Assembly (NCBI GenBank): GCA_009746045.1
Contig: RPFO01000312.1
Coordinates: forward strand, 2,103,279 to 2,167,278
Length of the DNA stretch: 64,000 nt
Origin: Mesostigma viride
Lineage: Eukaryota > Streptophyta > Mesostigmatophyceae > Mesostigmatales > Mesostigmataceae
Reading direction: 5' to 3'
The position numbers were made by a program, and so were the translations under genes. Shown here one piece after another: positions 752-62,113 of the stretch (its first letter is position 1; every line of letters begins with the position of its first letter). Below the pieces are notes generated by a model. That model was given only the letters and a program-made list of their open reading frames with translations. It ran no database searches and was not told where the DNA came from.

Positions 752-754
752 CTA

Positions 755-2420: not shown

Positions 2421-2596
2421 CCTCTAGATATCAGTCACCAAAATCATTTTTGCAAAATCCGGCCACGAGGTAGCCATGGCTGTCGGAGCTCATAACTTTC
2501 ACGTTTGAGCACCGAATTTAGCCGTGAATATCACTATCGCTTCGTCTTTCTAAGACGCACATGCTGATATAATTTTCTGAATCTAAAACGCAATAT

Positions 2597-4814: not shown

Positions 4815-5495
4815 CCACGCAGGGTTGTCATGTGAGGACCATGGGGGTACTATGTCCCAGCTCTTGTTCGCCCCACGAGCCAGTAAAACCAGTTCCCCCC
4901 TGACCTGCCACGCAGGGACCGGTCACTTTATGGTCAACACACAACACAAAGAAAACCCATATTTACCACAAATCCCCCCTCCCCCCCCTCCAAAAAAGGT
5001 TTGTCATATGAGTACCATGGGGGTACTATGTCCCAGCTCTTGTTCACCCCACGACCCAGTAAAACAGTTCCCCCCTGACCTGCCACGCAGGGACCGGTCA
5101 CTTTATGGTCAACACACAACACAAAGAAAACCCAGATTTACCACAAATCCCCCCTCCCCCCCCTCCAAAAAAGAAGGTTTGTCATATGAGTACCATGGGA
5201 TACTATGTCCCAGATCTTGTTCACCCCACCAGCCAGTAAAACCAGTTCCCCCCTGACCTGCCACGCAGGGACCGGTCACTTTATGGTCAACAGACAACAC
5301 AAAGAAAACCCAGATTTACCACTTTACCACAAATCCCCCCCCCCCCCCAAAAAAAAAGAAAAGAAAAGAAAAGTTGTCATATGAGTACCATGGGGGTACT
5401 ACGTCCCAGCTCTTGTTCACCCCACGAGCCAGTAAAACCAGTTCCCCCCCGACCTGCCACGCAGGGACCGGTCATTATATGGTCAACAGACCACT
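4815..5495. repeat. four-copy tandem satellite, period about 176-195 bp
   Basis: The landmark GTACCATGGG (GACCATGGG in the first copy) recurs at about 4839, 5015, 5193 and 5388, each followed by tact(a/g)tgtcccag-like sequence, GACCTGCCACGCAGGGACCGG and a poly-C/poly-A junction. The array ends a few bases from the stop codon of the minus-strand LRR gene, so it occupies the likely 3' untranslated or termination region. Period changes come mostly from the C/A tract. Confidence 0.9.
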
Positions 5496-5510: not shown

Positions 5511-5881
5511 TCATGCCTTCTGAGTACAAGTGTTGCTCAACACGCCCGGGACGTAATTACCCGTGCACTTGCTGCTCCCATTGCAATCCTGGTCGCAGCT
5601 CTTGCACTTATCCTGGAATGTTCCGCCCGAGGGACCAGAAGTCTTGCGAGTTCCACCTGCACAACAGCACACACCGTGCTGCTGACAGGGGTTGCCACCT
5701 GCGCTGCTGCACCAGGGTCCCTGGCAATCCTTGATGCACGCGCAGGTAACACCCGTCCAGCCCTTGCCCTTGCAGTCTTCATTGGCGCAGAAAAAGTCGC
5801 AATCCACATTAGCAGGATTGGGCTTGCAGGAGTTGCCGCAGCAGCACTTGCCCGGGCCGCAATCGGACTGCGCATGACATG
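5511..5881 (-). CDS. exon 23: C-terminal Cys-rich domain and stop
   Basis: Acceptor tacag and phase-1 entry; stop TGA at 5511-5513. It encodes about 123 residues dense in cysteine pairs and triplets (CHAQSDCGPGKCCCGNSC, then CKGKGWTGVTCACIKDCQG, then CCCAGGTRKTSGPSGG, ending NTCTQKA). The cysteine spacing differs from the 53-residue repeats, so this is a separate disulfide domain. I do not recognise the family. No hydrophobic tail or GPI-like signal follows, favouring secretion. The intron before it (5882-6493) holds nothing recognised. Confidence 0.8.
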
Positions 5882-8800
5882 CTGTACATGCATGTAAATT
5901 GGCAATCGGAAAAATATGGATTTGGTTAAGTGGCAAAGAACTATGAATCCAGGCAGCTAGCAAGTAGCAACAACACACATAATTGAGAAGATCGCATCAT
6001 TGTAGCTAATCTCGACAACCTATTTCATCAATTCTTTCTGAACCTTCCTACCCTTGAATTTCTACTCCCTAATGGTCCCCAAGGGTGGCTGTCTAAAAGC
6101 CTCTGCCCCAGCACATCAATTCCACATCAAGATATAATAATAATGCTGGCTTCTCTACCGTACTAAAAAAGCCAGGCATGGTACGCCCACCCAAATGTAT
6201 GCCCTCTCTCTCATTACAATTCTTGGCATTACAGTAGCCACCAAAGGATTCCCAAGTTAAAAGCATCTTTATAGCTTCACATCACAATAAGTAATCGACA
6301 TGAAAACACGTATTAATGTATCAAAGGCTGGCCTTATCATAGATGTACAAACGCCCAGAAAAACTCAGATTACAAGTTCAATGTGCCGCCCCATACGAAA
6401 GCATACCGTGATCCTGTAAAATTACGATACCTCGACTGTATCCTTCGCTTGCTAATGGAAAAAACATATTCACACACCAGCAGAAATGCTTACCACAAGG
6501 AATGTCCGTGGAGATGCATCCGCCATACTCCTCATAGCACAAATCAAGGGTGCAGGGGATGCCGTCATCACAGGTCACTGAGATCCCTGCAACGCAGCCC
6601 TTGGCCGCATCGCACGTCTCCGCACCGTTGCAAAACAGGCCGTCGCTGCATGGCGCATCCTCCTCCACGTGCACACACGTATCCTGGTCCTCATCGCAGC
6701 TGTCTGTGGTGCAGGCCACTCCGTCGCCACAGTCTGGAGGGGTGCCCGCAACGCAGCCCTTGGCCGCATCGCACGTCTCCACACCATTGCAAAACAGGCC
6801 GTCGCTGCATGGCGCATCCTCCGCCACGTGCACGCACCTATTCTGGTCCTCATCGCAGCTGTCTGTGGTGCAGGCCACTCCGTCGCCACAGTCTACGGGG
6901 GTGCCCGCAACGCAGCCCTTGGCCGCATCGCACGTCTCCTCACCGTTGCAAAACAGGCCGTCGCTGCATGGCGCATCCTCCACCACGTGCACACACGTAT
7001 CGTGGTCCTCATCGCAGCTGTCTGTGGTGCAGGCCACTCCGTCGCCACAGTCTGGAGGGGTGCCCGCAACGCAGCCCTTGGCCGCATCGCACGTCTCCTC
7101 ACCGTTGCAAAACAGGCCGTCGCTGCATGGCGCATCCTTCGCCACGTGCACACACGTATTCTGGTCCTCATCGCAGCTGTCTGTGGTGCAGGCCACTCCG
7201 TCGCCACAGTCTGGAGGGGTGCCCGCAACACAGCCCTTGGCCGCATCGCACGTCTCCTCACCATTGCAAAACAGGCCGTCGCTGCATGGCGCATCCTCCA
7301 CCACGTGCACACACGTATTCTGGTCCTCATCGCAGCTGTCTGTGGTGCAGGCCACTCCGTCGCCACAGTCTGGAGGGGTGCCCGCAACGCAGCCCTTGGC
7401 CGCATCGCACGTCTCCTCACCGTTGCAAAACAGGCCGTCGCTGCATGGCGCATCCTCCGCCACGTGCACGCACCTATTCTGGTCCTCATCGCAGCTGTCT
7501 GTGGTGCAGGCCACTCCGTCGCCACAGTCTGGAGGGGTGCCCGCAACGCAGCCCTTGGCCGCATCGCACGTCTCCTCACCGTTGCAAAACAGGCCGTCGC
7601 TGCATGGCGCATCCTTCGCCACGTGCACACACGTATCGTGGTCCTCATCGCAGCTGTCTGTGGTGCAGGCCACTCCGTCGCCACAGTCTACGGGGGTGCC
7701 CGCAACGCAGCCCTTGGCCGCATCGCACGTCTCCTCACCGTTGCAAAACAGGCCGTCGCTGCATGGCGCATCCTCCACCACGTGCACACACGTATTCTGG
7801 TCCTCATCGCAGCTGTCTGTGGTGCAGGCCACTCCGTCGCCACAGTCTGGAGGGGTGCCCGCAACGCAGCCCTTGGCCGCATCGCACGTCTCCTCACCGT
7901 TGCAAAACAGGCCGTCGCTGCATGGCGCATCCTCCACCACGTGCACACACGTATTCTGGTCCTCATCGCAGCTGTCTGTGGTGCAGGCCACTCCGTCGCC
8001 ACAGTCTGGAGGGGTGCCCGCAACGCAGCCCTTGGCCGCATCGCACGTCTCCTCACCGTTGCAAAACAGGCCGTCGCTGCATGGCGCATCCTTCGCCACA
8101 TGCACACACGTATTCTGGTCCTCATCGCAGCTGTCTGTGGTGCAGGCCACTCCGTCGCCACAGTCTGGAGGGGTGCCCGCAACGCAGCCCTTGGCCGCAT
8201 CGCACGTCTCCTCACCGTTGCAAAACAGGCCGTCGCTGCATGGCGCATCGTTCGCCACGTGCACACACGTATTCTGGTCCTCATCGCAGCTGTCTGTGGT
8301 GCAGGCCACTCCGTCGCCACAGTCTACGGGGGTGCCCGCAACGCAGCCCTTGGCCGCATCGCACGTCTCCTCACCGTTGCAAAACAGGCCGTCGCTGCAT
8401 GGCGCATCCTTCGCCACGTGCACACACGTATTCTGGTCCTCATCGCAGCTGTCTGTGGTGCAGGCCACTCCGTCGCCACAGTCTACGGGGGTGCCCGGAA
8501 CGCAGCCCTTGGCCGCATCGCACGTCTCCTCACCGTTGCAAAACAGGCCGTCGCTGCATGGCGCATCCTCCGCCACGTGCACACACGTATCGTGGTCCTC
8601 ATCGCAGCTGTCTGTGGTGCAGGCCACTCCGTCGCGACAGTCTACGGCGGTGCCCGCAACGCAGCCCTTGGCTGCATCGCACGTCTCCACACCGTTGCAA
8701 AACAGGCCGTCGCTGCATGGCGCATCCTTCGCCACGTGCACACACGTATCGTGGTCCTCATCGCAGCTGTCTGTGGTGCAGGCCACTCCGTCGCCACAGT

Positions 8801-11800
8801 CTGGAGGGGTGCCCGCAACGCAGATGTAGGACAAACACTTCTCCTCACCGTTGCAGAACAACCTGTCGCTGCAGTCAGCGTCTGACATGCATTGTGGCAT
8901 AGTGGCTACGAGGAACCCAAGTGCGCCGCAGCCACATTCAAGCACACAGTTTGGTATGCACACAATCACAGGAGTCAGTGCATTACTGTATTTGTGTCTC
9001 TGCATAAGAGAGGGAGACACCAACATGGGAGTGTAAAACTGAAATTCTAACATAACCCAGAAGTGCTTGTGACAGAGTACGCCCCGGAATTTGTGAAATT
9101 GCTAAGTACTATCTAAAATGAACTAGTAACTTTTGTCTTCATACTTCTAGGTTTGTACTGGGTTGCAATCACGCTTCTAATGACCCAACTTAAAACGAGG
9201 CATCAACTTACGCAGTGAATGACAGTAGCGCCCACTATTCCAGCCTTACCAAAACAGGAAGGCTCAGCTACCAGTGCTAGCCATGCCACCCATGCACCCA
9301 TGCACGGCGTGGAATTGGGTCAACACATGCCACGCTGAACAAGGGTCAACCAATCTCTCTGTAGACGAGTGACTTACTTTGGTTGGCATCGGCATTTTCC
9401 TGAACGTTGGTTTATATGCTACAGGACTGATGATCATTAATGAAAATGTACAAGAGTTCGAACACAGACACAATTAAACTATTAGACTGGTTAGGTGCTC
9501 AAGGTAGGCTAAAGGTTTATGGCAGCTACTTCCTGCCACTTCCACTAGATTACATATCTGGCTTCTTATTTAAGCCTGTCCGCTCAGAAGCTAAAATATG
9601 AGCAAAGCTTGACAAATGATAGGCGTGTGCAGGTGAACACTGGATCAGTGTACAAGAGTGCAAGCATGCAGGTAATTTATTCCGTTAGCAACTAGTGTCA
9701 AAGTTAAGTCACATAATACATGCCCTCACCTGCCCGCCGGGCCAACATCAGTGATGCACTAGTTCAACCTCTTATATATTATACCTTGATCGATTATAAG
9801 GCACCCACTTGTCCTATTCACCAGCCTTGCACACGTATAGATGCTGGCTCGGTTGCTACTCGCTTCCACACAGCAACTTGCAGCGTACAATTGGATCGAC
9901 GAACACCACGTGGTAAATTACTTGGCAAAACTATGTCATAAGAAAAACTAGTGAGTCGCACTATACGAAGGGGTATATCTTGCTACCAGCGATTGGTACA
10001 GAAAACATTTGATTATTGAGATGTTGGTAGGAGCATATCTTGTAATGGTACACCATGAAAAAAGATTGTGCAGTATATTGTGATTGTACAGATAGTGTCA
10101 CGCCAACCTGTGACTTCAATAGAAAGTCAGTCTACCTGCCATGCTGTGCGTATACCATATAATATTTAGGTCGCCGAAATGCACATTACGTGATATCTGG
10201 GTACAACCTTCTTGATGCGTGGAAACTGGTCTGGCAGGCCTTAGCGCAAAATGTAATTTAGATGCGTCATTCCTTATCAATACGTCCATCCAGTAACACA
10301 TTATGTCTATGCGACAACACATGAAACAAGTATGACTACGATAGGAAAATCAATGAAGTCTGGAAGCAGCTTTCAGACTGATAGCCTCTACAGCATTCAC
10401 TATCAGGCCTACTAGATACAGAGGGATAGCTTACGCCAGCACAAACTCAGAGAAACTTGCACTTCGATTGATAACATGAGACACAAGAGAGCAGCATTTC
10501 TGATGCAAGATTGCTATGATACTAGTGTAAATGCAGGTCGCAATTGTTGTATCTGCATGAAAGCTCATCACCCCCAGACTACAATCCGTGCTGAGACAGT
10601 CGAGCTCTTGGATCTGGGGGACTCGTGAACAACACAGGGAGAACTGCAACAGCCAATATCTGTGTACTTTGCAACCAAATACGCCAATACGTGATATTTA
10701 ACCTGAATAAGATGAAGATAAGGCTGCAAGCATGCATACTTTTCACAAATTAGTCACAACCAGACATAACAGTAACCAAGCCCCTGGATAAAGCAGCATT
10801 AGGACGTACCCAGGCATGTGACGTTGCCCACACAGAATGGGGTACTTGGATCGCAATTCCAGTTTGGAGTTAATGGTGCGACAGCTCCGCTGAAGCATCC
10901 TGCAGCATAGCAATGCCAAGCCCGTAAGATGGGGAATAAACAAGACACAGGCAAATAAGTTACATAGCTCTTGAAAGAAAATGCAAACTATAACACAAGA
11001 AAGCCTGGTAGAAGTAACACGGCAGACTGCCAATGCAGAAAGATCATCAACGCAACCAATACTAACATAGTTCTGCAGCTCCAATTTGCCATACCTGGCG
11101 GAACAAGCTTTCCAGAAGGAGCTGCCACATCAGCTCCCCATAAATCTACCCTAGTTTCTGGAGCATGACTCCCTCGGCATGATGATCTTTTGGCATTACT
11201 CCAGGATCCAGTGTCCATATGTATGGGGTAGCATCCCATAACCCAGGACATTCAGACAGACAGTGCTGTCATCTATGACATATAATTTGATAGGGTAAGT
11301 TTAAACAGGAAAAACCCAAGAGATACGTACCCTTAACGTAATTCTCTAACCACTAGACAAATAAAACACTGCTCTCTTGAGGCACCTCCCATGTACTGAG
11401 CTACCCCATGCAGCTTAACTCCAGTCCTCGAAAGAAGAAGAGGTTTCAGCGTGAATGCCCTCCATGAAGGCAGAAGGGACCGCTGCTGTTGGCTTTGGTC
11501 CATGGTAGAGAAGCTATTCACGGCAAGCGGGCGGAATGCAGATGTTTGTAGCTGCACCTAAGCCTTGCAGATGTTTCCATAACCATAAAATTATATCATT
11601 ATCATGTTTTGTATGAAGTATATGAACCTGCCGATGCGTGATCTCATAAGTGGGCCCAAAAAAGTTGTACTTGCATCTAAGAAAATGATGCCGTGAACAG
11701 ACAGGTAGATTAGTTTGTTATCTTGTGCTGCTCATGTTGTTTGGGTGCTACTCTGCGCACGATGTCATATCTTCTCCTGTTCAGTTGTCCTTGTTGTGCA

Positions 11801-14800
11801 GTGTTGCCCTAATATCCATTCAAAAACCACTGCCCTCCTTGTTCTCTCCCAGTGCCCACACCAACAACCAACCATGTCAATCGCAAACATAGCCTTCATG
11901 TACTGCAACAGCAAGTAGCTCATTGATGTGGGTAAACCCTGGGGGGGCTGTGGTGAGTAAACCCTGGGTAGACGTCTACAAACCCTTGGGCCCCGGAAGG
12001 ACCCGCTGTGCTTTTCTTCTGAAACCCCGCCTTCATGAAGTCTCGTCAGTCTGGAGGCGGCACCTTGCCTGAAACTTCTCCTTTGTTGGAACTAATCAAG
12101 TAACGTGCGCTTGCAACCTTACGTTAAAGCTTTCGTCGTCCTAGCCCATTTTCGGAAGACATTCGCCGCAGGCTTCCTCAGGACTTATGCTTGCAGAGAT
12201 GCACAAATTATTTGGATGGATGGATGGATGGATGGGTTACAGTTTGACGTGCGTTTTCCCCAAACCAAATCCTTCAAACGTTCTTCGTCCGTACCATCTT
12301 GGCCGCAGATTCAAAGTGTTTGCGTACATTATCGCCGTTCAAGTACTTGGTGCCAGAGGAAGTAGCCACCTCACGCGCTGTCCAAATAAATTGCCTTCGC
12401 CCTTTCTTCGAACCTTTGGTTCTTCCGAAAATGGGCTCCGACTGAATAAACCCGGAACAAACTTTGCACAAGCCTGTCGGGCGACTTCATGCGTCCAAAA
12501 GAGCAAATTTGCTATCTACTTGAGCTTTGCATTAAGCTAAGACAACAAGGCTTCACATTTAGATGACCTGGACTACATAGGAGGATGCCTCTGTTGTATA
12601 ATCGCAATGTGTCTGCTGTCTAGAATTTGAGGGCACTCACGATACCTGCAGCATGGCTTGCCCAGCAAGCACGCTCTATCACACTGTGGCTTACCTGTTA
12701 GGTGGTGAGAAGGACGAGTTTCTCTGCACCCTTAATGCGCAGTGGCAACAGTGACAAAAAGCATTTCAGTCCTTGTTATGACTTCAAATTCCATGCTTCC
12801 CATTGGATGAAGCGCCTGATGAAGGAATGAGTATAGTTTCCTAATGACAGAAACCTCTGGGCGGCAAAGTGCCATAAACAATACACAAGGTCGTCAAACT
12901 TACTAGGACAAGTGTTGTTGTAAGTGCCAGTCCTGCCTAGAGTACGCCCAGGGGGGTCGGGTCCGCAAATCAGAGGGTTGCCACTTACAGCCCTGCAAGG
13001 CCAGGGTAACGTATGAAAGGAATGAATTCAACAGCACTTAGGAGAGGTGAAGAAGATTCATGAGAAGTGAGTGGAAAAAGAGGATGAAGGGGGCCGAGGA
13101 GCAAACACTATTGGTAAGCTTACTTTAGTGAGCCAGAATTCTGCTTGCATCAGGGCAAAATGTGCCCAATTGCTTTGGGAAGGGGCTTCAGGTGACAGCA
13201 ATCAACTTATTTAGTTACCCATAAGCAACTTACGTAGTTAGTAATTACACGTTAGATGCAATATGTAACTGAAGTGAGAGCAAACTTCACCTACAACCTG
13301 TGAGGCGGTTCAGAGAAAAATAATTCTGGATGAAGAATCCAAAGAAATACGTCAGACTCCCTGTATACCGTGTGGACAGCTGAACTAGACAACATTCAAC
13401 CCACAGGAGTCTCAACGATTACTAAAATGTTGGATGCGGCGTGCATCCAGCGGTCCACAGACTGTTGGCGGACTGATAGCATTGTATAGAATGATCATAT
13501 TCTTTGTTGGGTAGAGTGCAATCAGCGATTTTTTGTCTCATACTGGTGTTCTCAGCTCTTATGTTGGTCGAGAAAGTCAACCGGGAAGCAGACGAACACA
13601 CACCAAACAAAGACGGTGGGATGAACAGGAAACTTTAAACACTTTTCTTTGCGGCCTTCCATCAGCGCATTGGTACATAGAAGCTAGTGTTAACAATTCC
13701 TGACACTCATCCTAGTGGGGATTCTAACCCATGGGTGATGGTAGACAGGTATTTCTATGAACCCTAAACAGACATCAGCACTAGGCCAAGAAAAGTATAT
13801 GCAGACTTTTGCTAACCATGTGACTACAGAGGTACTAAAATTTCAAAGTCAATAATGAGGACGAGGAGCCCGCTGAGGTCAACCTAGATTAAGACCTACA
13901 TTAGGCCAAGCTAGCCTAGCTCCACCTGAGCACGCCCGGATGGGCCCCTACGGATGGGCCCCGGCGACTCAGACGCGGCAAATAGCTTGGTACTTTCTCA
14001 CTCTGAAACTGCTTATGCAAGTTACCACTACGTAATCCTGCTATGGAAAATAAACCTTCCTGACAAGCTCATGGCATGGAAGGGGCGCTGCGAAACTTAA
14101 ACTGCAACATCTCAAGCAAACACAGTCAACTTCAAGCATGCCCTCCTGGGTAGTCAGTTTTCAATTCACAGACTACACAGCATTCGCGACTTAGCAGGCA
14201 AGCACGTAAATCACACCCTAAACCTATCCACCCTTTTGAGCCATGCGATCCCGGCGTAGTTACGCATACTTAAATAATCGCTTAAGGCACAGATGAAATT
14301 ATTGTAAAGCAACCTTAAATGTGCTCGGCATTTTCAATCTGTGAGCAAGTGGCTCAGGCAGGGAAAAACATGTCGTACAGAGTTGGCATGGTGAGAAAGC
14401 GTCCGTTCGAGGGGATACTGCCAACCAGCGAGTTGGATTGAACAAGTCTGTGGCAGAGACAAGCAGTTGACATCATGCGTATACATGCACAAACAAGGCC
14501 AGCGCAGAAAGGGAAGATTTTTGTCAGTGATCAAGTTCTGGCTCATCGATCCGACTAATCAACTGCCAGCCCCTGGCAGGAGCCAAATCGTGGTTCTTTG
14601 AACGTGAGCTGCTTTGCAATGATATCGAAGGGAAGCCGTTGCAGCTCGTTGACCTCAAGTTCCACGGTTAGTAGAGAATATATGCAGCAATTTTGACATG
14701 CAGCTCACGCAGCTCAGTTTCATGTTCACACCCAGGGCTGCATTTGAAAACAGATGCCTAGGAGACTTTTCCATATACATACATGCATGCATGCATGCTC

Positions 14801-47800: not shown

Positions 47801-48696
47801 GCAGGACTGATACTAGTCATAGTGACTAATCCAGGTCATTGATCATGTGAGCTGAAATGGACAAGCAGGATATGTTCATGCACTGTCTGTTGATTTCCAT
47901 TACGCTGAGTGTCCTTGGAAGGTAGCCATGGGGTATAAAGCGCGAGCATCGCATGAGTCTCGGCGTCTAACCCCAGTTATGTCCAAGACAAAGCTACCTT
48001 TAACCCTTAAATGGTATCCAACTCGCCCCTACAAATAGGGGCCAGTTTGCACTTTTGCAAGATAATGTCCACAAACCAACATAATAACAATTTTACCGTC
48101 CATATTTGGACCAAAGCCCACACATATATAGAGTTACTTGGGGGTCATGTCAGTGGTCATGTATCAAGGTCCTATGGGTACATATTAAGGACCCCCCCCC
48201 AGGGGGGGGCGCCGAGTGCGAAACTTGACACACCTATAATGCATTATTACAGGCCAAAACAATTCCGTTGCTCCTGTTTTTTTACATGGGTAGCCAGGCA
48301 TGTTTGTTACATGGGTAGCCAGGCATGGCTTCTGAACACTGACATCATTGATTGTCCCAGGGACCCGGTATACGGGCCGAAAAAATTACTACCGTATACT
48401 TTTTGTCGTATATTGAAGTAAAATTTACTAAAGTATACGACACAAAGTATACGGGCCGTAAAACTTACGGCCCGTATACTTGGTGTGGTATGCTGTAGTA
48501 AATTTACTACCGTATACGACACAAAGTATACGGGCCGTAAAATTTACGGCAAGTTTACTTTGTGTCGTATGCCTTACAGGCCATTTTTTACGTACACTTG
48601 GCGTCCACTAGAATTAATGTCACGCTACGTACACGCCGCGTACACCGAACCGAGCCTAGTACGGGGCCGTAACCAAAAAGGACCCCGGTTACGGTC

Positions 48697-48727
<31 letters not shown>

Positions 48728-51700: not shown

Positions 51701-54700
51701 TCCCCTCCCCTCCCATCCCTGAGCTTCCCTCCCCTTTTCTCCCTCTCCCTTAGTAGCTTTCCTCCCCTTCCCTTTCTTAGTTTCGCTCCTTCTCTGCATT
51801 ACCTTAAGTTCCTTTAGCTTCCTTCCTCTCCCCTCCCATCCCTTAACTTCCCTCCCCTTTCCTCCCTCTCCCTTCTGAGTAGCTTTCCTCCCCTTCCCTT
51901 TCTTAGCTTCCCTCCTTCCTTGCATTACCGAAATTCCTTTAGCTTCCTTCCCCTCCCCTCCCATCTATCCCTGAGCTTCCTTTCCCTCCCCTTCACATGT
52001 CATGCACTAGTTATATAACCACGATTTCGCAAGGCCCTCTACACATGCATGCTTGTTGTATATAGTAGGTGGCATCTGTTGTTTTATATGATAGTTGTGT
52101 ATCTTAATTGATAGCATCTTAACTAGTAAATTTATTCTAGATTGGGTTCCAAATCTTGATCGTGGGCAATGATGAAGATTATGGCATGTGCTTCTTGTCT
52201 ATTAGGTGTTATCAACTGACCGTCCTTCATGACGTGCTTGTTCCCCTTTGATGTGTATCGCTGTGCGACCTTGTCTGTTACGGACCATACACTTGTGGAT
52301 GTTTACCTAGCCACGGGCGGCTTGAAGATTGATGTTCCTCAAGCGGCGGATGGAGAACTGAGTGCATTGAGTGTGACTTGCGATCGAAGAATGTGTTCCG
52401 CGATCGAGTGCGAATGCTGTTTTAAATCGTGCTCAATAAGTGGCCATATGTGAATGGTCAACGTAGTGTGTTTCTTAGTAGTATGTGTTTCTCCATTAAT
52501 TTGAATGATTGATAATTGATTAATTAATTTAAATTATTGCCACAAAATGCATAACTTAAGCTTCTAATGTTTGCACAATAATGTGGGTTTCCATGAAGTC
52601 AAATGACAATGCAAATCACAATACACTAGGTTGGACAAATCACAAGGTTACGGCCCGTATATTTGTCCAGTATACTGGCCGTAAACTTTTACTACCGTAT
52701 ACTTTTTCTCGTATACTGGCCCTAAACTTTTACTACCGTATACTTTTTCTAGTATACTGGCCGTAAAATTTACTACCGTATACTTTTTCTAGTATACTGG
52801 CCGTAAAATTTACTAGCGTATACTTTTTCTCGTATACTGGCCGTAAAATTTACTACCGTATACTTTTTCTATATACTGGCCGTAAAATTTACTACCGTAT
52901 ACTTTTTCTCGCATACTGGCCGTAAAATTTACTAGAGTAAACTTTACGACCGTATTCGAGAAAAAGTATACGGTAGTAAAATTTACAGCCCCTATACGAG
53001 TGGCAAGTATACGCGTACGAACGCAAACTTTACGGCCCGTATGAATTTCCGTATACGATTACGGGCCGTAAATTTATAGTTTAGTGTCTAGCTGGGTCCC
53101 TACTCAGATCACGGAAATACCTACTGGCATTCGCGCCGCGCCGCTTCCCATCTGCCCTCTATTCGTAGAGGCGAGTTGAACTGCCTACTATAAATAGGGG
53201 ACAGTACCATTTAAGGGTTAAGGCCAAAAGTTTGTGAACAATCAAGCAGGTATAGTAATTTGGCGGGGGCAAGCACACTTACAAGATGGTCAGAGCCGTC
53301 AAGTTGCCCACTTCGGGCGCAAGTGTCCCCGATAAAGTCGGAGCTCTGCATGAGCATAGTTTACCGAACCGAAACATGGCAGAAACAACCCCCTATTCTA
53401 GTTTAATTAGAAACCCTGGGCAACACAGAACATGCCATGGCTAGCGCAGTCTCTTTCATGCCTACATACCTATAGGGTGATCCATTCTGTTCTTGGGCTG
53501 CAGGGCTGGGATGGACCTTCATTGTCCATCAGCACTTACTAGTGTGACCTTGAATTCTTACTAGTGTGACCTTCAATCTAGCACATTCTACAATTGTCAT
53601 GTCCCAAAAAACATGTAACCCAGCCGAAATTACAAATGCTCAGGGTTTACATGCGAAATTTCACAGCCCACCCATGCTGAGTCATGACAAATAGACGGAT
53701 AGAAAAATATCTTAGCACGTAGTGCATTCCCAGAAAAAGTGATTGCTGTACATGACAACAAAATGATAACACATCTGCCTTGTAATGCTGATTGAGTCGC
53801 AGCACTCTTACTCGTCTGAATAAGGACCCCGTCAGACGAGCCCATACAGCTTTATACCAGTAGAATGCCAGTTCTACTTTGCCCATGAGTGACAACATCT
53901 CAAGTGCTGAGCTTGGCCAATGTGTCTTGCTCAAGATTGTCTGGACCACTTTCACCAGAAACAAAGAAGTCGAACTTAACCTGTCCTAGCTACCTATAAG
54001 AGAACTACTTATACAATGAGAATGTAAGCATGACTTGGTTATTAATAACGACCAAATACATTTCTCAGGCTGTTGTTCCGGGCAGTGCAGTCCCTATGTC
54101 AGCAGACCTCCTGCCATCCCTGCTCACTGACTGCATGCCCTGACAAGTAAGGGAATCCCAATCATGAGAGATCATCCACGTCGCATGAGAAATCTCTCTA
54201 ATTATTACCAAATGTCTGTCTGGTGTGTTTCTCCGACAGTGTGCAGACTAAGTGAGAAAACAAAAAACATGTTTATTTCGGGTAAGTGGATAATTGTGTA
54301 GTGTCCAATTATAGACCAGATATGTAACCGGGGAGATAGGTATCAACCAATCCACACATTAGGGAAAAACATGTTTATCACTTGGTTTTTGGTCCATTTA
54401 AACTTAGACTAGGAAGATCTGGAACTAACATGAAGTCAACAGTACAGAGGGTGCTTACTTGTTAAGAAGTACCGAAGTCACCCGGGAGGCGCTGCAAGTG
54501 ACATATGCAAACGTGCAAGGGTCTCCTCCGCTTGTCCAGTTTGCAATTGCAGCATGGTCTAGAAAGCCGCTCTTCATTGCTAGTAGTGCAGCTCTGTCAT
54601 CTGCTGGACTTATCAAAGCATATTTCCACACAAACACACACACACACACAAAAAAAAAAAAAAAAGGTCACAATGTCTTCAACAAAGTAACATTTGAAAA

Positions 54701-60700: not shown

Positions 60701-62058
60701 AGAGAAGATGTGCATGATAGAGCTTGGTTTCTGTGACCTTGTGTGATGATCAACGATACAAGAAACTATACAACCTGCGTCAAGCAACCACGGCATGGTA
60801 GCATATCTCATGATGAGCAGAACCCTACAATAGCGGGTAAATGAGTTCTGGTCAGTTAAGCTCATACATCATTATGAACTGAGACACTAGGCCTAGCTTA
60901 CCTCCGAGGTCGTGGAAGAAGTGTAAGCACCATCAACCGCTTCGAAGCTTGAGCTTTCTGCACGGGACATCCATACATTGTGCGCGATGTGTAATACAAA
61001 CGCTTCAGAAATCGTATCACTGTCCCCTTGCGGCCTGGTCAAAGAGAGAGAGTCATTCATAAGTTAGGTACACATCCACATGAAGTTCTACTTAGATTTA
61101 TTGAGAACACAGTCGCGGACCAGCATGGCATGGTGCCACAGAACAACGGATCCTGCTTCATTATAAAGAAGCTAGGCAACATGCATTTAATGACCGTCTT
61201 CTAGCTTCCATGCCAGTTTACAAACTTGTATAACATGTGACCATTTTTTCTAATGATTGGCACACTGCATTTTTACAGTAGAAAGTTGCTTAGAGTAAGA
61301 TTTAGAGACCCTTTTTTGGGCCCATTACGCGGGGTGGGTGAATTGAGAATTTGGTTGCAACAACTACAGGTAACAAGCACTATGGTTCGGCATGAGATGA
61401 CTGTATTTCTAGGCTGTGAAATTACAAAAGAATAGGGTTAACATCGGCTTGATTGAATGTGACGTGACGAAAGCCGCTGGCTACAACAAGACTTGCGAAC
61501 AATCACCATGCTAGATTATGATAGACCACGCGAGAAGGCGGGTCCAGATACCCCCCCCCCCTATACCCCGTAGACCCCCCCTGGATTTTTTTCCAACCGA
61601 TTGCCCTATATTCTACGTTTTCGCTCCGCGAAAAGTTTGCGCGAAATGGTGCCGCAAACTGTTGCCGCGTGCGAGTAGCGTGCCGCGGTGACCGCGATTG
61701 TAAAAACAATTACTATTTATTTCCGAAGGTTCTTTGTACTAGGCACTTCGAATTACCCATGCGGGCGGTGTATCAATATTGGGGGGAAAAGGTTACCTGT
61801 ACTGCCAGTCAGCCCGCGAATTCCTTCATTTGAGGTGCTGGCGCCAATGGAGCTTGCATACTGAAGGTTGCTGCAGAGCGATATCGGGATGAAGCTGGCC
61901 ATCAGTACAGTTGCAATAGCCAGCTGCAGCTGCAGTAGCGCGAGCTTCAGTGTCGGACGTGATCCGCGACCGCCGGGAGACAACATTGGTCGTCGGGCGG
62001 CCATGAGCTGTTGGCTGAAATTAGCCGGAATGGTGCGACGGCGACGATGCGCCATCAA
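5511..62058 (-). CDS. LRR / Cys-rich repeat secreted or cell-surface protein (whole gene, 23 exons)
   Basis: Joining the 23 exons listed below gives one continuous frame of 4,581 nt (1,526 residues plus stop) with GT-AG borders throughout. Approximate layout: hydrophobic leader 38-62; LRR N-cap 88-135; 16 LRRs 136-518; C-cap with NPLICGPDPP 519-548; two short Cys segments 549-599; fifteen 53-residue eight-Cys repeats 600-1403; Cys-rich end 1404-1526. The caps resemble plant SERK/LRR-II receptors, but no kinase and no membrane anchor follow, so a secreted or wall-bound recognition or matrix protein is the likely role (inference). Intron phases are 1 after exon 1, 2 after exons 2-18 and 1 after exons 19-22. 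Weak points: exon 1 is assigned by phase and leader only, additional LRR exons could be missed in long introns, and no transcript is available. The partner or ligand is unknown. Confidence 0.75.
6494..8905 (-). CDS. exon 22: fifteen tandem 53-residue Cys-rich repeats
   Basis: One 2,412-nt exon, phase 1 in and out (acceptor tcgtag, donor TG|GTAAGC). The 159-bp unit carries eight cysteines: CSDGLFCNGEETCDAAKGC, then VAGTPPDCGDGVACTTDSC, then DEDQNTCVHVAEDAP. The first copy (CSDRLFCNGEEKC) and the last (GISVTCDDGIPCTLDLC) have diverged, while the 13 between are nearly identical in DNA, differing at a few recurring positions (P/V before DC; QN/HD; KD/ED/ND). This points to recent unit turnover. 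Repeats of the form 'C.DG.FCNG.E.C' are common in large secreted proteins of myxobacteria and related bacteria, and also occur in some protists (general knowledge). They are presumably rigid disulfide modules outside the cell. Confidence 0.9.
10810..10899 (-). CDS. exon 21: short Cys-containing linker
   Basis: 90 nt, phase 1-1, acceptor ctgcag and donor GG|GTACGT. It encodes CFSGAVAPLTPNWNCDPST then PFCVGNVTCLG, with four cysteines. It joins exon 22 directly (GCC at the junction). The intron toward exon 22 (8906-10809) is about 1.9 kb with no repeat I could identify; a splice-bounded 43-nt stretch near 9379-9420 breaks phase and was not called. Confidence 0.7.
11095..11157 (-). CDS. exon 20: short linker after the LRR C-cap
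   Basis: 63 nt, phase 1-1, acceptor ctccag and donor AG|GTATGG. It encodes TRVDLWGADVAAPSGKLVPP. It contains no cysteine and is open only in the phase-1 frame, which is the one its neighbours require. The assignment rests on splice signals and phase. The intron toward exon 21 is only 195 bases. Confidence 0.65.
12904..12992 (-). CDS. exon 19: LRR C-terminal cap, phase converter
   Basis: 89 nt, acceptor ccttgcag, consensus donor TA|GTAAGT. Entry is phase 2 and exit phase 1. It encodes AVSGNPLICGPDPPGRTLG then RTGTYNNTCP. 'GNPLICGPDPP' directly after an 'IPSNGRF' LRR is the classic plant LRR C-cap (compare N-N-x-x-LCGP in SERK proteins, where the exon break falls at the same place). The exon changes the intron phase from the LRR class (2) to the Cys-module class (1). 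The intron toward exon 20 (11158-12903) has a short (GGAT)n run near 12215 and nothing else recognised. Confidence 0.85.
14379..14447 (-). CDS. exon 18: LRR 16 (last repeat)
   Basis: 69 nt, phase 2-2, acceptor ccacag, donor CT|GTACGA. It encodes LVQSNSLVGSIPSNGRFL followed by TMPTL. The 'SIPSNGRF' ending in place of the usual 'IPxELGxL' marks it as the terminal LRR, as in SERK-type receptors ('VPDNGSF'). The intron toward exon 19 (12993-14378) holds no recognised element. Confidence 0.8.
15523..15594 (-). CDS. exon 17: LRR 15 (class B)
   Basis: 72 nt, phase 2-2, acceptor acacag, donor CT|GTAAGA. Core MKLSGTIPDTLGNLPSL. Flanking intron sequence (ATATGGAGCTCAACAGG on one side, GAAGCATTCCAGGGC on the other) is shared with exons 7, 11, 13 and 15. 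About 600 bases of the following intron (14920-15520) are also paralogous to 18430-20170. Confidence 0.9.
17543..17614 (-). CDS. exon 16: LRR 14 (class A)
   Basis: 72 nt, phase 2-2, acceptor ttgcag, donor AT|GTGAGC. Core TKVSGFIPPELATLTSL. Intron sequence at 17615-17800 (GAGAAGAAATCAGCAGCCCC, then CCAACTCATGTGGAGGGCC) is shared with exons 4, 5, 6, 10 and 12. The intron at 15595-17542 contains no recognised element; 17110-17340 is distantly alike to 29280-29470. Confidence 0.9.
18526..19601. mobile_element. insertion of about 1.1 kb within a duplicated intron segment
   Basis: Sequence on both sides matches the paralogous segment at 14920-15300 without a gap, whereas 18526-19601 is absent there. 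The ends carry GTCAAATTGTTGAC and GTCAATTGTTGAC, and GTTGAC/GTCAA motifs cluster in both terminal 100 bases. A transposon is likely. I see no clear transposase, and exact ends and target duplication are uncertain by a few bases. Confidence 0.55.
20174..20242 (-). CDS. exon 15: LRR 13 (class B, one residue short)
   Basis: 69 nt, phase 2-2, acceptor ccacag, donor CT|GTAAGT. Core TKLSGTMPPLGSLKSL; compared with its siblings it lacks one residue between 'P' and 'LG'. Flanks are class B. The intron at 17615-20173 contains the inserted block at 18526-19601. Confidence 0.9.
20412..20868. repeat. 114-bp minisatellite, four copies
   Basis: Landmark GATTAAGGTAAACTAGTGGG recurs at 20414 (one base deleted), 20527, 20641 and 20755, an exact 114-bp period with very few differences. 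The unit length is a multiple of three, which is why a 140-codon minus-strand frame spans it; no splice or start context supports coding. It lies in the intron between exons 14 and 15. Confidence 0.92.
21632..21703 (-). CDS. exon 14: LRR 12 (class C)
   Basis: 72 nt, phase 2-2, acceptor gcgcag, donor TT|GTAAGC. Core TSLSGSIPVELGLLPSL. Following intron sequence AGTAGGAAGCCAGCA-like at 21720-21760 is shared with exons 8 and 9. Confidence 0.9.
23189..23260 (-). CDS. exon 13: LRR 11 (class B)
   Basis: 72 nt, phase 2-2, acceptor ccacag, donor CT|GTAAGA. Core SMKLSGTIPTALGSLTSM. Class B flanks. The intron toward exon 14 (21704-23188) includes a block at 21780-22700 that is paralogous to 32830-33390. 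Confidence 0.92.
24440..25580. other. GC-rich block in intron between exons 12 and 13
   Basis: Composition differs from the AT-richer intron around it. It holds internal direct repeats: CGGCTGCTCCGCTGCCTGCT at about 24748 and 24948, and GGTGCGCAGCCGG at about 24781 and 24820. Several overlapping open frames occur on both strands without recognisable motifs. Probably an inserted element of unknown class. Confidence 0.4.
25676..26500 (+). repeat. SINE-like dispersed repeat, copy 1
   Basis: It carries GGTATAGTGGG (resembling a tRNA A box) and TAGTTCGAGGCCCC (resembling a B box) at 25796-25828, then TGTGGCACACTTATAATGG and AGGATGGCATCCCAGCACTA farther on. The same ordered blocks occur at 39180-41155 (interrupted), 56806-57290 and 59515-59745. 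The A/B-box pair at short spacing suggests a tRNA-derived SINE. This copy seems to contain a second, more diverged head near 26143. Confidence 0.5.
26810..26881 (-). CDS. exon 12: LRR 10 (class A)
   Basis: 72 nt, phase 2-2, acceptor cctgcag, donor CT|GTGAGC. Core TDVSGFIPPELGSLSLL. It differs at only a handful of positions from exon 4 (46772), along with shared intron flanks on both sides, so these two copies separated recently. Confidence 0.92.
27710..27781 (-). CDS. exon 11: LRR 9 (class B)
   Basis: 72 nt, phase 2-2, acceptor ccacag, donor CT|GTAAGA. Core TKLAGTIPPALGSLRPL. Class B flanks. The upstream intron (27782-30707) also holds blocks paralogous to 21300-21480 (at 28550-28640) and cryptic simple repeats at 29030-29130 and 29540-29700 built on AAGTC/CATGCC-like words. 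Confidence 0.92.
30708..30779 (-). CDS. exon 10: LRR 8 (class A)
   Basis: 72 nt, phase 2-2, acceptor cctgcag, donor AT|GTGAGC. Core TNISGSIPSWMTVMPSL; the usual 'PELGSL' is replaced by 'SWMTVM', giving a more hydrophobic repeat. Class A flanks on both sides. Confidence 0.9.
31513..31564. repeat. two adjacent GC hairpins
   Basis: AGACCC-GCA-GGGTCT at 31513-31527 is followed by GGGGCCC-AAA-GGGCCCC at 31548-31564. Both are perfect. They lie in the intron between exons 9 and 10, in a locally GC-rich block. Confidence 0.8.
32677..32751 (-). CDS. exon 9: LRR 7 (class C)
   Basis: 75 nt, phase 2-2, acceptor gcgcag, donor CT|GTGAGT. Core RLSCTIPDEFSGLTKL. It has a cysteine where most repeats carry the G of 'SGTIP' and a second cysteine earlier (DGC). 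Exon 8 also has a core cysteine, so a disulfide between neighbouring repeats is possible. Confidence 0.85.
33846..33920 (-). CDS. exon 8: LRR 6 (class C)
   Basis: 75 nt, phase 2-2, acceptor gcgcag, donor TT|GTAAGT. Core NPLLSGCLPPQLGGLLSV. Flanks shared with exons 9 and 14. Confidence 0.88.
34003..34603. repeat. pair of perfect hairpins sharing AGTCCGTTCTAG
   Basis: Hairpin 1 has 17-bp arms at 34003-34019 and 34038-34054 (GTCCGTTCTAGTGGCTT and its reverse complement) with an 18-base loop. Hairpin 2 has 9-bp arms GCTCAGTCC/GGACTGAGC at 34579-34587 and 34595-34603. Both contain AGTCCGTTCTAG. They could be the two ends of an approximately 600-bp foldback or hairpin-ended element in the intron between exons 7 and 8. 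This intron also has GGGGGC-GAA-GCCCCC at 35251-35265. Confidence 0.6.
35891..35965 (-). CDS. exon 7: LRR 5 (class B)
   Basis: 75 nt, phase 2-2, acceptor ccacag, donor GT|GTAAGA. Core PKLSGTIPMELGGLTNCA. One codon longer than most class B exons. Class B flanks. Confidence 0.9.
36955..37029 (-). CDS. exon 6: LRR 4 (class A)
   Basis: 75 nt, phase 2-2, acceptor cctgcag, donor CT|GTGAGC. Core QQLSGVIPPELGSLSAL. One codon longer than the other class A exons. Confidence 0.92.
37922..37993 (-). CDS. exon 5: LRR 3 (class A)
   Basis: 72 nt, phase 2-2, acceptor cttgcag, donor CT|GTAAGC. Core SKVSGTIPFELGSMISM. Class A flanks, more diverged than in exons 4 and 12. The intron before it in transcript order (37994-46771) is the longest LRR intron, at 8.8 kb, expanded by transposon sequence. 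Confidence 0.9.
39180..41155 (+). repeat. SINE-like dispersed repeat, copy 2, split by a TTAA element
   Basis: The left part (39180-39362) has GTGGATCTTCCTG and AATGGTGGACCCC. The right part (41077-41155) has GGATGGCCTCCCAGCACTT and CTAGGGACCCACAAGA. The two halves are continuous in the copies at 25676 and 56806, so the element at 39363-41076 inserted here later. Confidence 0.6.
39363..41076 (+). mobile_element. piggyBac-like TTAA element, copy 2
   Basis: 1,714 bp bounded by TTAA on both sides with inverted termini beginning CCCCTAAATGG. It is nearly identical along its length to 54741-56451. TTAA target choice and CCC-starting termini are hallmarks of the piggyBac superfamily (established knowledge). 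No transposase-length frame is present, so it is non-autonomous. Its clean interruption of the SINE-like repeat fixes its borders. Confidence 0.82.
41156..44178. other. intron sequence, unassigned
   Basis: Part of the intron between exons 4 and 5. It contains a GC-richer section (41330-42200) and several open frames of 70-150 codons on both strands with no motif I recognise and no repeats shared with the rest of the window. It could be a remnant of an unknown element. Confidence 0.4.
44180..44432. repeat. (CCCA)n microsatellite, about 63 units
   Basis: An almost pure tetranucleotide tract with two CCTCCCAC-type interruptions near 44294, ending in CGCACGCACGCACG. The minus strand is (TGGG)n and can form G-quadruplexes. 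Long Gly-Trp-Val-Gly frames across it are repeat artefacts. Confidence 0.97.
44850..45243 (+). pseudogene. decayed retrotransposon gag with CCHC zinc knuckle
   Basis: A Gly/Gln/Arg-rich basic stretch (GGYQGRQQGDSDSGGRAK) leads to KCLNCGK in one frame and GHWKQECPDR in the adjacent frame. Together these make a CX2CX4HX4C knuckle, the nucleic-acid-binding motif of Gag, broken by a one-base shift near 45160. Open frames continue to about 46600 without reverse-transcriptase motifs. It is an LTR-element relic in the intron between exons 4 and 5. Confidence 0.5.
46772..46843 (-). CDS. exon 4: LRR 2 (class A)
   Basis: 72 nt, phase 2-2, acceptor cctgcag, donor CT|GTGAGC. Core TQVSGFIPPELGSLRLL. Class A flanks, closest to exon 12. 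Confidence 0.92.
46950..47999. other. intron sequence, unassigned
   Basis: Between exon 4 and the 5.2-kb TTAA element. I see no exon signals or repeats here. Confidence 0.5.
48365..48575. repeat. left subterminal repeat array
   Basis: Several degenerate units built from ACCGTATAC, ACACAAAGTATACGGGCCGT and AAATTTAC. They are the counterpart of the array at the right end and probably transposase-binding sites. Confidence 0.7.
48690..48960. repeat. (GTT)n / (GTTCTT)n runs with CCCACGCCGC spacers
   Basis: GTT runs at about 48696 and 48903 and a GTTCTT run near 48817 are each followed closely by CCCACGCCGC; a further CCCACGCCGC lies at 48882. The same pairing, (GTT)n then CCCACGCCGC then GCCGAGGGCCGG, recurs at 62290-62360 near the gene's 5' end, so the unit is dispersed. 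Confidence 0.75.
49930..50870. repeat. about 50-bp G-rich minisatellite, about 18 copies
   Basis: The unit contains TTGTTCCTTGTCAAGGGAGG followed by GATGCATGTGGGGTGGGTGG and GTGCACGTGC. Landmark GGGATGCAT recurs at about 50007, 50057 and 50157, with further copies at similar spacing to 50850; the unit at 50107 reads GGGATGCAC. Frames across it (Cys/Gly/Trp-rich) are by-products. Confidence 0.9.
50871..52000. repeat. about 126-bp homopyrimidine minisatellite, about 9 copies
   Basis: The plus strand is almost entirely C and T. Landmark TTGCATTACC (and variants) recurs near 50916, 51042, 51171, 51298, 51425, 51550, 51673, 51795 and 51922. Such strand asymmetry favours triplex (H-DNA) structure. 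Confidence 0.88.
52645..53085. repeat. right subterminal array, 40-bp unit
   Basis: About six tandem units with ACTACCGTATACTTTTTCT and TATACTGGCCGTAAAATTT (starts near 52691, 52732, 52772, 52812, 52852, 52891), then a segment in inverted orientation around 52930-53060. Confidence 0.85.
53283..53345 (-). CDS. exon 3: LRR 1
   Basis: 63 nt, phase 2-2, acceptor catgcag, donor TT|GTAAGT. It encodes APTLSGTLAPEVGNLTALTI. It completes the first repeat together with the end of exon 2 (RVTSVLLNK). Three codons shorter than the standard repeat exon, as expected because exon 2 already supplies the first strand. Confidence 0.9.
53346..54458. other. intron between exons 2 and 3
   Basis: No repeat or element recognised. 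A 105-codon minus-strand frame at 53647-53964 shows no known motif and is not needed by the exon chain. Confidence 0.5.
54459..54603 (-). CDS. exon 2: LRR N-terminal cap (LRRNT), phase converter
   Basis: 145 nt, entry phase 1 (acceptor tccag), exit phase 2 (donor AA|GTAAGC). It encodes DDRAALLAMKSGFLDHAAIA, NWTSGGDPCTFAYVTCSASR, VTSVLLN. The pattern 'D..ALLA.K......W....DPC....VTC....RV' is the plant-type LRRNT_2 cap with its two disulfide cysteines. A pyrimidine-rich (T)n(TG)n tract precedes the acceptor. This exon is the strongest evidence that the LRR chain starts here. Confidence 0.9.
54741..56451 (+). mobile_element. piggyBac-like TTAA element, copy 3
   Basis: 1,711 bp, TTAA at both borders, left terminus CCCCTAAATGG, right terminus with one mismatch (ACGGG for AGGGG). 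It is in the same orientation as, and nearly identical to, 39363-41076, and lies in the first intron of the LRR gene. Confidence 0.82.
56806..57290 (+). repeat. SINE-like dispersed repeat, copy 3
   Basis: It begins CTAAGGTGAGACACCAGTTT, carries GGTATAGTGGG and a B-box-like CCAGTTAAAGGTC near 56920-56945, CATTATGCATGGTGG and AGGATGGCGTCCCAGCACTA. This is the uninterrupted comparison that shows the split in copy 2. Confidence 0.6.
57291..59514. other. first-intron sequence, unassigned
   Basis: It holds a short (GGTG)n run at about 57764-57795 and plus-strand open frames at 57991-58224 and 58796-59188 with a basic composition reminiscent of transposon remnants, but no motif I can name. Confidence 0.45.
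59515..59745 (+). repeat. SINE-like dispersed repeat, copy 4
   Basis: CCAAGGTGAGACACAAGACT, GGGGGTATAGTGGG and AGTTCAAGACCACTTGGG, then CACACTCATAATGCATGGTG. Same block order as the other copies, shorter at the right side. Confidence 0.6.
60187..60404 (-). CDS. candidate extra exon Z (alternative N-terminal region)
   Basis: Acceptor gcgcag, possible donor A|GTACAA; entry phase 2 and exit phase 1, compatible with exon 2. It encodes WKNMNREANLIGGLIMELAV, AFSDGQDVFGSFEGVVYQTS, HNNYVLDLNSAVLIETFAVS and a short end. Alternatively the frame runs on to a stop at 60113 and ends a separate gene. The residue mix looks protein-like, but I recognise no family. Splice sites were chosen to fit the phases, which weakens the support. 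Confidence 0.35.
60738..60824 (-). CDS. candidate extra exon Y
   Basis: Acceptor attgtag, donor AG|GTCACA (weak), phase 2-2. It encodes VLLIMRYATMPWLLDAGC then IVSCIVDHHT, a hydrophobic segment. It fits between candidate exons X and Z by phase only. Confidence 0.28.
60902..61034 (-). CDS. candidate extra exon X
   Basis: A strong pyrimidine tract and acceptor (ctctctctttgaccag) and a donor AG|GTAAGC frame a 133-nt stretch. In the phase required by exon 1 it reads RKGTVIRFLKRLYYTSRTMY, basic and without a known motif. The other fully open frame reads a Ser-rich segment ending AVDGAYTSSTTSE. The splice signals are good; the reading frame is undecided. Confidence 0.35.
61797..62058 (-). CDS. exon 1: start and signal-peptide exon
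   Basis: ATG at 62056-62058, donor AG|GTAACC, exit phase 1, exactly what exon 2 needs. A basic N-terminus (MMAHRRRRTIPANFSQ) is followed by a hydrophobic core LALLQLQLAIATVLMASFIP and a plausible cleavage region ISLCSN, then a Ser/Gly-rich stretch (GASTSNEGIRGLTGST). Met19 or Met25 are alternative starts that would give a more typical signal peptide. The link to exon 2 across a 7.2-kb intron is an inference; transcripts would decide it. Confidence 0.55.
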
Positions 62059-62113
62059 ATCGGGCGGGGATTTGAAGCCCGCCTAGCGTGCAGCCAGCTG
62101 TGAACAACAAATG

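Follow-up and report, generated by a model that had tools for sequence, protein, structure and literature searches.

Can one gene carry the head of a plant receptor on a cysteine-rich array that looks bacterial? The question is raised by a locus of Mesostigma viride (Streptophyta; assembly GCA_009746045.1, contig RPFO01000312.1, positions 2,103,279 to 2,167,278), a stretch of 64,000 nucleotides that we analysed as a whole and call the window. An earlier note had proposed here a gene that fuses a leucine-rich repeat (LRR) ectodomain to a cysteine-rich repeat array. We rebuilt this gene and found that both parts lie in one open, phase-consistent frame on the minus strand. Our favoured reading, to which we give a probability of about 0.6, is that one gene encodes a secreted LRR head for recognition or adhesion on a disulphide rod.

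A 22-exon gene model on the minus strand

LRR-like exons were located by pattern and profile, and the exons were chained via GT-AG borders and phase. The resulting gene (62055..5511) has 22 phase-compatible exons that form a frame of 1,503 residues with its sole stop at the end. The 21 introns are all GT-AG, measure 612-8,778 bases each and sum to 52,033 bases. The start ATG is at 62055, and a stop in the same frame lies upstream at 62085. Exon 1 ends in phase 1, the entry phase of the LRRNT exon; the 16 LRR exons and the cap exon are entered in phase 2, and the three exons that follow (linker, array and last) in phase 1. The in-frame, multi-exon gene proposed earlier was recovered, with 22 exons instead of 23 and 1,503 residues instead of about 1,526. 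This discrepancy may come from a single small exon, or from which acceptor is used, in the interval from 10.8 to 8.9 kb, where there are two possible acceptors. The exons, with the evidence for each, are as follows.

61797..62055, minus: exon 1, with the ATG and a hydrophobic stretch resembling a signal peptide (hydropathy 2.07 at residue 38)
54459..54600, minus: exon 2, LRRNT_2 cap, DRAALLAMKSGF...DPCTFAYVTC (Pfam E 7.1e-10; phase 1 entry matches exon 1; acceptor score only 3.9)
53283..53345, minus: LRR exon 1, 63 nt (profile and phase)
46772..46843, minus: LRR exon 2, 72 nt, family A (pattern, phase, flank family)
37922..37993, minus: LRR exon 3, 72 nt, family A (upstream flank matched by a profile built without it, E 2.8e-10)
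36955..37029, minus: LRR exon 4, 75 nt, family A (profile, phase, flank family)
35891..35965, minus: LRR exon 5, 75 nt, family B (profile, phase, flank family)
33846..33920, minus: LRR exon 6, 75 nt, family C (profile, phase, flank family)
32677..32751, minus: LRR exon 7, 75 nt, family C (profile, phase, homologous flanking intron)
30708..30779, minus: LRR exon 8, 72 nt, family A (pattern, phase, flank family)
27710..27781, minus: LRR exon 9, 72 nt, family B (pattern, phase, flank family)
26810..26881, minus: LRR exon 10, 72 nt, family A (pattern, phase, flank family)
23189..23260, minus: LRR exon 11, 72 nt, family B (pattern, phase, flank family)
21632..21703, minus: LRR exon 12, 72 nt, family C (pattern, phase, flank family)
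20174..20242, minus: LRR exon 13, 69 nt, family B, one codon less (profile, phase, flank family)
17543..17614, minus: LRR exon 14, 72 nt, family A (pattern, phase, flank family)
15523..15594, minus: LRR exon 15, 72 nt, family B (pattern, phase, flank family)
14379..14447, minus: LRR exon 16, 69 nt, unusual donor GTACGA, the least certain LRR exon (phase, splice sites, weak PDB match)
12904..12992, minus: C-terminal LRR cap exon with NPLICGPDPP, AVSGNPLICGPDPP...NNTCP (phase; weak MIK2/SERK1 cap match together with the last LRR)
10810..10899, minus: small linker exon, four cysteines (phase 1 to 1; donor score only 1.5)
6494..8905, minus: array exon, fifteen 53-residue eight-Cys repeats, that is, thirty four-Cys modules (acceptor score only 1.9; Dicty_CTDC 40.3 bits)
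5511..5881, minus: last exon, encoding a C-terminal Cys-rich domain (about 122 aa) and the stop (phase 1 fits; acceptor score -2.4)

The protein thus begins with a signal-peptide-like start and continues with an LRRNT_2 cap, 16 plant-type LRRs, a C-terminal cap, the array of fifteen 53-residue eight-Cys repeats and a Cys-rich end. The signal-like hydrophobic stretch spans about residues 38-60, with the Kyte-Doolittle 19-residue maximum of 2.07 at residue 38, and the joined protein contains 157 cysteines and seven N-glycosylation sequons. We could not find a second membrane-like stretch in this gene model, where no 19-residue hydropathy window beyond residue 90 exceeds 1.39. The transmembrane segment and kinase that follow the ectodomain in an LRR receptor-like kinase are likewise not found in the model. 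HRD, DFG and APE are motifs of kinases, and none of these patterns occurs unsplit in the six frames of the window, although motifs split by introns would escape such a search. The earlier note had described the gene as free of kinase and membrane anchor, and we also reject either of these as the real 3′ end, given that neither window strand holds an unsplit kinase motif, in a search that would miss a kinase split between exons or lying outside the window. For an open, phase-consistent gene of this kind, the best reading is the one already suggested, a recognition or matrix protein that is secreted or wall-associated.

The LRR head is of the plant extracellular type

The head shows an LRRNT_2 cap followed by plant-type LRRs, as in plant-type extracellular LRR proteins. 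Pfam recognises LRRNT_2 (E 7.1e-10; 39.5 bits, cut-off 20.7), LRR_14 (E 1.8e-22; 80 bits, cut-off 40) and LRR_1 (E 7.6e-17), all above their curated cut-offs, and LRR_4, LRR_8 and, barely, LRR_R13L1-DRL21 also pass. The nearest solved structures by sequence are plant receptors, namely GSO1 (4e-93), FLS2 (1.2e-89) and MIK2, among the best 60 of 165 matches. Together with the long GT-AG introns, such plant-type LRRs suggest an alga, of the green lineage or another. The LRRNT fragment matches TMK1 (9e-11, in two weak stretches), 9uob_A (2.4e-8) and BAK1 (1.3e-4), and the last LRR together with the cap gives weak matches to MIK2 (1.1e-3) and SERK1 (6.4e-3). The LRRNT cap, the 16 LRRs and the NPLICGPDPP cap (exon 12992-12904) are as first reported. 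The caps had further been called typical of the SERK/LRR-II receptors; they are indeed plant-type, but the fragments are not SERK-specific, TMK1 being nearest for the LRRNT cap and MIK2 for the C-terminal cap, and we do not assign the gene to the SERKs.

Of the LRR exons, nine measure 72 nt, four 75 nt, two 69 nt and one 63 nt, all lengths that are divisible by 3. With a profile trained on 12 of the 16, these 12 score 46.0-62.6; elsewhere, the highest score is 18.9 on the plus strand and, outside the model, 10.8 on the minus strand. Outside the training set, exon 53345 scores 26.7, and exons 32751 (17.0), 20242 (13.3) and 14447 (10.7) are not distinguishable by profile score alone. Exons 20242 and 32751 are supported by homologous flanking introns, and exon 14447 by its phase, its splice sites and the weak PDB match of the last LRR and cap.

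The cysteine-rich array has bacterial relatives and eukaryotic matches

A recount of the FCNG-containing repeats again gave fifteen eight-Cys units, spaced by 53 residues thirteen times and by 52 once, with the first and the last degenerate. Tandem Repeats Finder reports a 159-bp unit in 14.1 copies with 96% matches and zero indels, and the mean identity among 13 array copies is 93%. Each repeat is made of two four-Cys modules, which alternate in two types within the 53-residue unit.

Prokaryotic relatives of the repeat were found at 69 loci, three of them archaeal. The bacterial arrays are 52-62% identical, and the closest share both the cysteine spacing and the 53-residue period. Gap-free alignments over 168-169 residues were obtained with the loci L001, L002, L003, L004, L005 and L026; in L001, L002, L003 and L026 the best stretch of each is 57-62% identical. 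Spacings of 53 residues occur in L001, L002 and L026, and L002, L003 and L026 have signal-like starts as judged by eye. No LRR family is among the Pfam matches of L001, L002, L003 and L026, and a regular expression found no LRRs in 55 bacterial open reading frames (ORFs), a similar pattern missing most of the window's own LRRs.

The array is also recognised by a eukaryotic family. The array ORF (6378-9101) passes the cut-off of 27 for Pfam Dicty_CTDC (PF00526) with 40.3 bits, while a 387-aa part stays under it with 19.9 bits. Among four bacterial ORFs, that of L002 passes (41.9 bits), those of L001 and L003 are under the cut-off and that of L026 has no match. DUF5975 and PaaX-like_Fer-like also score above their cut-offs on the array ORF with no single stretch passing, and we attribute both to the biased composition of a protein that is repetitive and rich in cysteine. 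NCBIfam gave nothing for the array or for two bacterial relatives, and a sequence search of the PDB with the repeat returned one irrelevant match only (E 0.7).

The predicted module fold, with a predicted local distance difference test score (pLDDT) of 87, has two hairpins per repeat. In a Foldseek search with this model, all five matches with E ≤0.001 were Entamoeba Gal/GalNAc lectin heavy chains (best 1.3e-5), which to our knowledge carry no LRRs. In 22 bacterial rows with 65 ungapped units, C5 and C8, the first and last cysteines of the second module, are jointly absent in 20 units and jointly present in 43, and C8 alone is absent in 2; the arrays without both are L026, L004, L007, L009 and L024. 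This joint loss suggests that C5 and C8 of the repeat unit form a disulphide pair.

The repeat, described before as bacterial-looking, does have relatives at the 69 prokaryotic loci with identities of up to about 62%, but it also passes Dicty_CTDC and has Entamoeba lectins as its top Foldseek matches. A strictly bacterial origin is not sustained because Dicty_CTDC fits as well, and our eukaryotic comparison, for the repeat and for the architecture, covered solved structures and family libraries only. Transfer of the array from bacteria is possible. We also considered a viral origin and set it aside, as there was no confirmed viral-contig relative of the Cys repeat or of the last-exon domain, and none of the last-exon domain in phages. 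This domain has no Pfam match; against the PDB it gave one weak amphiregulin-like stretch (E 0.011), and its alignment-free fold (pLDDT 54) is uninformative.

LRR exons duplicated with their introns and diverged on the concave face

Comparison of the window with itself revealed exon-sized blocks duplicated together with introns along the gene; the unit that multiplied was an LRR exon plus intron. By their flanks, most of these exons group into three families, A with six members, B with five and C with three. For A and B, flank profiles were each trained on five members; they match the window 21 times, with 6 upstream and 5 downstream matches for A and 5 on either side for B. All 21 adjoin an exon of the model, which supports the exon calls; 20 of them recover training members, and the one new match borders 37993. 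No dead exon copies were seen in the window beside recognisable family A or B flanks (family C was not profiled).

These results bear on whether the gene is decayed or not expressed. Exon 20242 is one codon short and the first array repeat is degenerate, as might be expected of such a gene. However, 22 of 22 exons are open, 21 of 21 introns are GT-AG, all LRR exon lengths are multiples of 3 and the profiled flanks border no dead copy, so that we regard decay as highly improbable. Because every LRR exon enters in phase 2 and has a length divisible by three, the frame would survive the omission of any one of them from the transcript, and isoforms that skip LRR exons are possible.

We then compared the divergence of duplicated exons with that of their introns. 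Pairs were drawn from 72-nt exons of families A (five) and B (three), altogether 8 of 16 LRR exons; neither pairs of unequal length nor family C were used. The comparison gives an excess over intron divergence and is not a codon-model test. Along five spanning edges, 195 of 906 intron positions differ, compared with 29 of 60 in the concave codons 1, 3, 4 and 6 and 54 of 285 in the remaining exon. Codons 1, 3, 4 and 23 also differ at 29 of 60 along the same edges (p 1e-5 against the introns), and at 21 of 36 in three disjoint exon pairs, where the introns differ at 101 of 529 (p 7e-7). In these disjoint pairs, the concave codons differ at 56-63% and the introns at 19%, an approximately threefold excess (p 7e-7 to 3.5e-6). 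Across three definitions of exposed codons and three pair sets, the values are 48-63% for exposed codons, 19-28% for introns and 19-26% for the rest of the exon, which never differs significantly from the introns (p 0.057-0.62). The upstream intron K is below the dN of codons 1-6 in three groupings, the first being part of the second (0.11 vs 0.37, 0.25 vs 0.82 and 0.31 vs 0.58). The excess divergence of the concave codons suggests diversifying selection on the binding face.

The protein could also be mainly structural, with a head that binds a fixed wall polymer or protein, neutral gain and loss of repeats, and a concave excess produced by relaxed constraint and biased sampling. In its favour, the rest of the LRR exons diverges at about the intron rate, implying that constraint is weak overall, and Dictyostelium EcmA, made of Cys-rich repeats, is described as a matrix protein (PMC4406040). 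Relaxed constraint alone, however, cannot lift codons over the intron rate, as is seen in every codon and pair set (48-63% vs 19-28%), and we consider a mainly structural protein unlikely.

The joint between head and array

Several observations speak against our favoured reading of one gene with a diversifying recognition head. The LRR-to-array junction is the weak point of the model: donor 10899 scores 1.5, acceptor 8905 scores 1.9 and the last acceptor scores -2.4, compared with 7.0-13.8 for the LRR exon acceptors, whose scores are flattered by a splice profile derived from the same gene and its duplicated exons. On the side of the concave excess, the 13-pair set is non-independent, and positions and pairs were picked after viewing the alignments, though the positions are set by the LRR fold. 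The downstream intron K (0.33, 0.62 and 0.30) is nearer to the dN of codons 1-6, and the dS of these codons, with few sites, is erratic (0, 0.54 and 1.52). The Dicty_CTDC score, finally, is partly open to the same composition objection as DUF5975 and PaaX-like_Fer-like.

The weak joint raises the alternative of two adjacent genes. The first would encode an LRR protein and stop near 12.9 kb, unless a further 3′ exon went unseen; the second would encode the Cys array and begin near 9.0 kb. Consistent with this, the poor splice sites coincide with the joint, and the array ORF extends upstream without a stop to 9101 and includes, behind a methionine, a fairly hydrophobic stretch (ALTPVIVCIPNCVLECGCGALGFLVA), by eye a possible signal peptide. 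Moreover, a better array acceptor at 8999 (score 4.9, phase 0) misfits the phase of the linker exon; the acceptor used is 8905 (score 1.9, phase 1). On the other hand, three successive junctions (12904/10899, 10810/8905 and 6494/5881) agree in phase, and unspliced read-through of the cap exon hits a stop after about 42 residues, with no kinase. The linker exon is also Cys-rich like the array and unique in this among the candidates outside it. When open phase 1-1 segments were screened with the linker exon's own splice scores as thresholds, 22 of 33 on the minus strand were Cys-rich, 21 inside the array plus the linker exon, and none of 12 on the plus strand. Taking these together, we think it improbable that the locus holds two genes, and a single transcript would carry the LRR and array exons.

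A proposed recognition head on a rod

In the single-gene reading, the LRRNT-capped solenoid of 16 plant-type LRRs would bind a ligand on its concave face, and a rod of thirty disulphide-locked four-Cys modules would keep the head off the cell or anchor it in the wall or matrix. The Cys-rich tail would be the third part of a secreted, membrane-free protein. The head may have grown via exon-plus-intron duplication, after which the concave-face residues would have diversified, a pattern as expected of a receptor or decoy facing a changing partner such as a microbe, self/non-self or a mate. If the fusion is real, two extracellular modules otherwise met apart, the heads of plant receptors and the Cys rods of bacteria and slime moulds, are united in one secreted protein. 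LRR and Cys-repeat fusions of this kind are not named in the literature surveyed, among the matches listed, which is no proof of absence.

A bolder and rather doubtful proposal is that of an exon-modular, fast-diversifying secreted receptor of an alga-like eukaryote, in which frame-neutral duplication and skipping of LRR exons would supply variable heads on an amplified rod acquired from planctomycete- or myxobacteria-like surface proteins. If true, this protein would represent a new class of extracellular recognition molecules, one that uses the one-LRR-per-exon design of brown algae independently.

Repeats around and within the gene

A dispersed 754-base repeat occurs three times in the window, at 1-754 (plus), 39364-40117 (minus) and 54742-55495 (minus); the two later copies match the first at 96-97% identity. 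They sit in intron 4 (39364-40117) and intron 1 (54742-55495), and between them the similarity extends over 1.7 kb (39363-41076 and 54741-56451; 95.6% identity). Intron 4 also contains a long ACCC microsatellite (44179-44444). Intron 3 contains minisatellites of 50/149 and 127 bp (49920-51987) and GTATAC-rich 40/79-bp repeats at 48368-48572 and 52655-52945, two sites that match each other in both direct and inverted orientation. A 114-bp tandem unit is repeated four times with 97% matches within an LRR intron (20411-20865). Just behind the stop codon, 175-bp tandem repeats (4821-5488) possibly belong to the 3′ untranslated region. Past the 3′ end of the gene, overlapping open frames at 2568-3961 (plus) have no Pfam match; a mobile-element reading of these ORFs at 2.5-4.0 kb was dropped, with neither Pfam support nor a plasmid match. 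Rfam gave nothing at gathering scores and no tRNA was found in the window.

Comparison with known systems

The gene shares with the plant receptors TMK1, GSO1, FLS2, MIK2 and SERK1 an LRRNT_2 cap, LxGxIP-type LRRs and an NPLxCG-like C-terminal cap. It differs from them in having a Cys array in place of a membrane span or kinase, neither of which was detected in the window, and in the asparagine of LxxLxLxxN, which is never N in 13 repeats here (T 6, P 2, M 2, S 1, Q 1, V 1). With the Cys-repeat proteins of Planctomycetota, deltaproteobacteria and myxobacteria (L001, L002, L003 and L026) it shares the eight-Cys, 53-residue unit, whereas their copies within a protein average 41-46% identity against 93% for 13 copies here.

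The Dictyostelium CTDC-repeat proteins (PF00526), among which we presume EcmA and EcmB, likewise have tandem Cys-rich modules of about 24 residues, and the array ORF passes the cut-off of the family; the modules here, however, alternate in two types within the 53-residue unit and have an LRR head attached. EcmA and EcmB are described as matrix proteins of Cys-rich repeats, and EcmA probably reinforces the stalk (PMC4406040). In the Entamoeba Gal/GalNAc lectin heavy subunit, the best Foldseek match of the module model, the Cys-rich arc is described as a chain of 20-35-residue four-Cys pseudo-domains of antiparallel strands whose first and last cysteines pair (PMC12948311), which is echoed by the joint C5/C8 loss in the bacterial relatives. 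The same text gives three antiparallel strands per pseudo-domain, in contrast to the hairpins of our model, and the PDB search gave no sequence match.

Tetrahymena LRR genes also have tandem phase 2 exons of the same size, expanded by duplication; theirs are of 90 bp, corresponding to another LRR length, and no such Cys array is described in the passages on those genes (PMC6564038). According to PMC11378527, each LRR of the brown-algal LRR-ROCO genes lies on a 72-bp phase 2 exon of 23 amino acids, LRR exons are intensely shuffled, and the concave sites 14, 16, 18 and 19 are under positive selection in what are proposed to be immune receptors. In the Mesostigma gene all LRR exons are in phase 2, with 9 of 16 at 72 nt and the others at 63-75 nt. 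By our alignment of the consensus, the four selected sites are the structural positions of codons 23, 1, 3 and 4, at which the excess over introns was seen here (8 of 16 exons, without a codon model). The brown-algal proteins are LRR-ROC-COR GTPases, whereas the gene here has an LRRNT_2 cap, a signal-like start and a Cys rod, and no ROC or COR domain is among the Pfam matches of residues 1-631, the C-terminal part or the array ORF. In the same alignment, the brown-algal exon ends after NxL and the exon here inside the strand, and this different intron position within the LRR suggests that the arrangement arose independently. If the fusion is real, the homologous introns beside the LRR exons provide an internal clock, against which the concave codons seemingly run faster than neutral DNA, and which makes it testable whether this lineage, like the brown algae, evolves recognition specificity by duplication and diversification of LRR exons.
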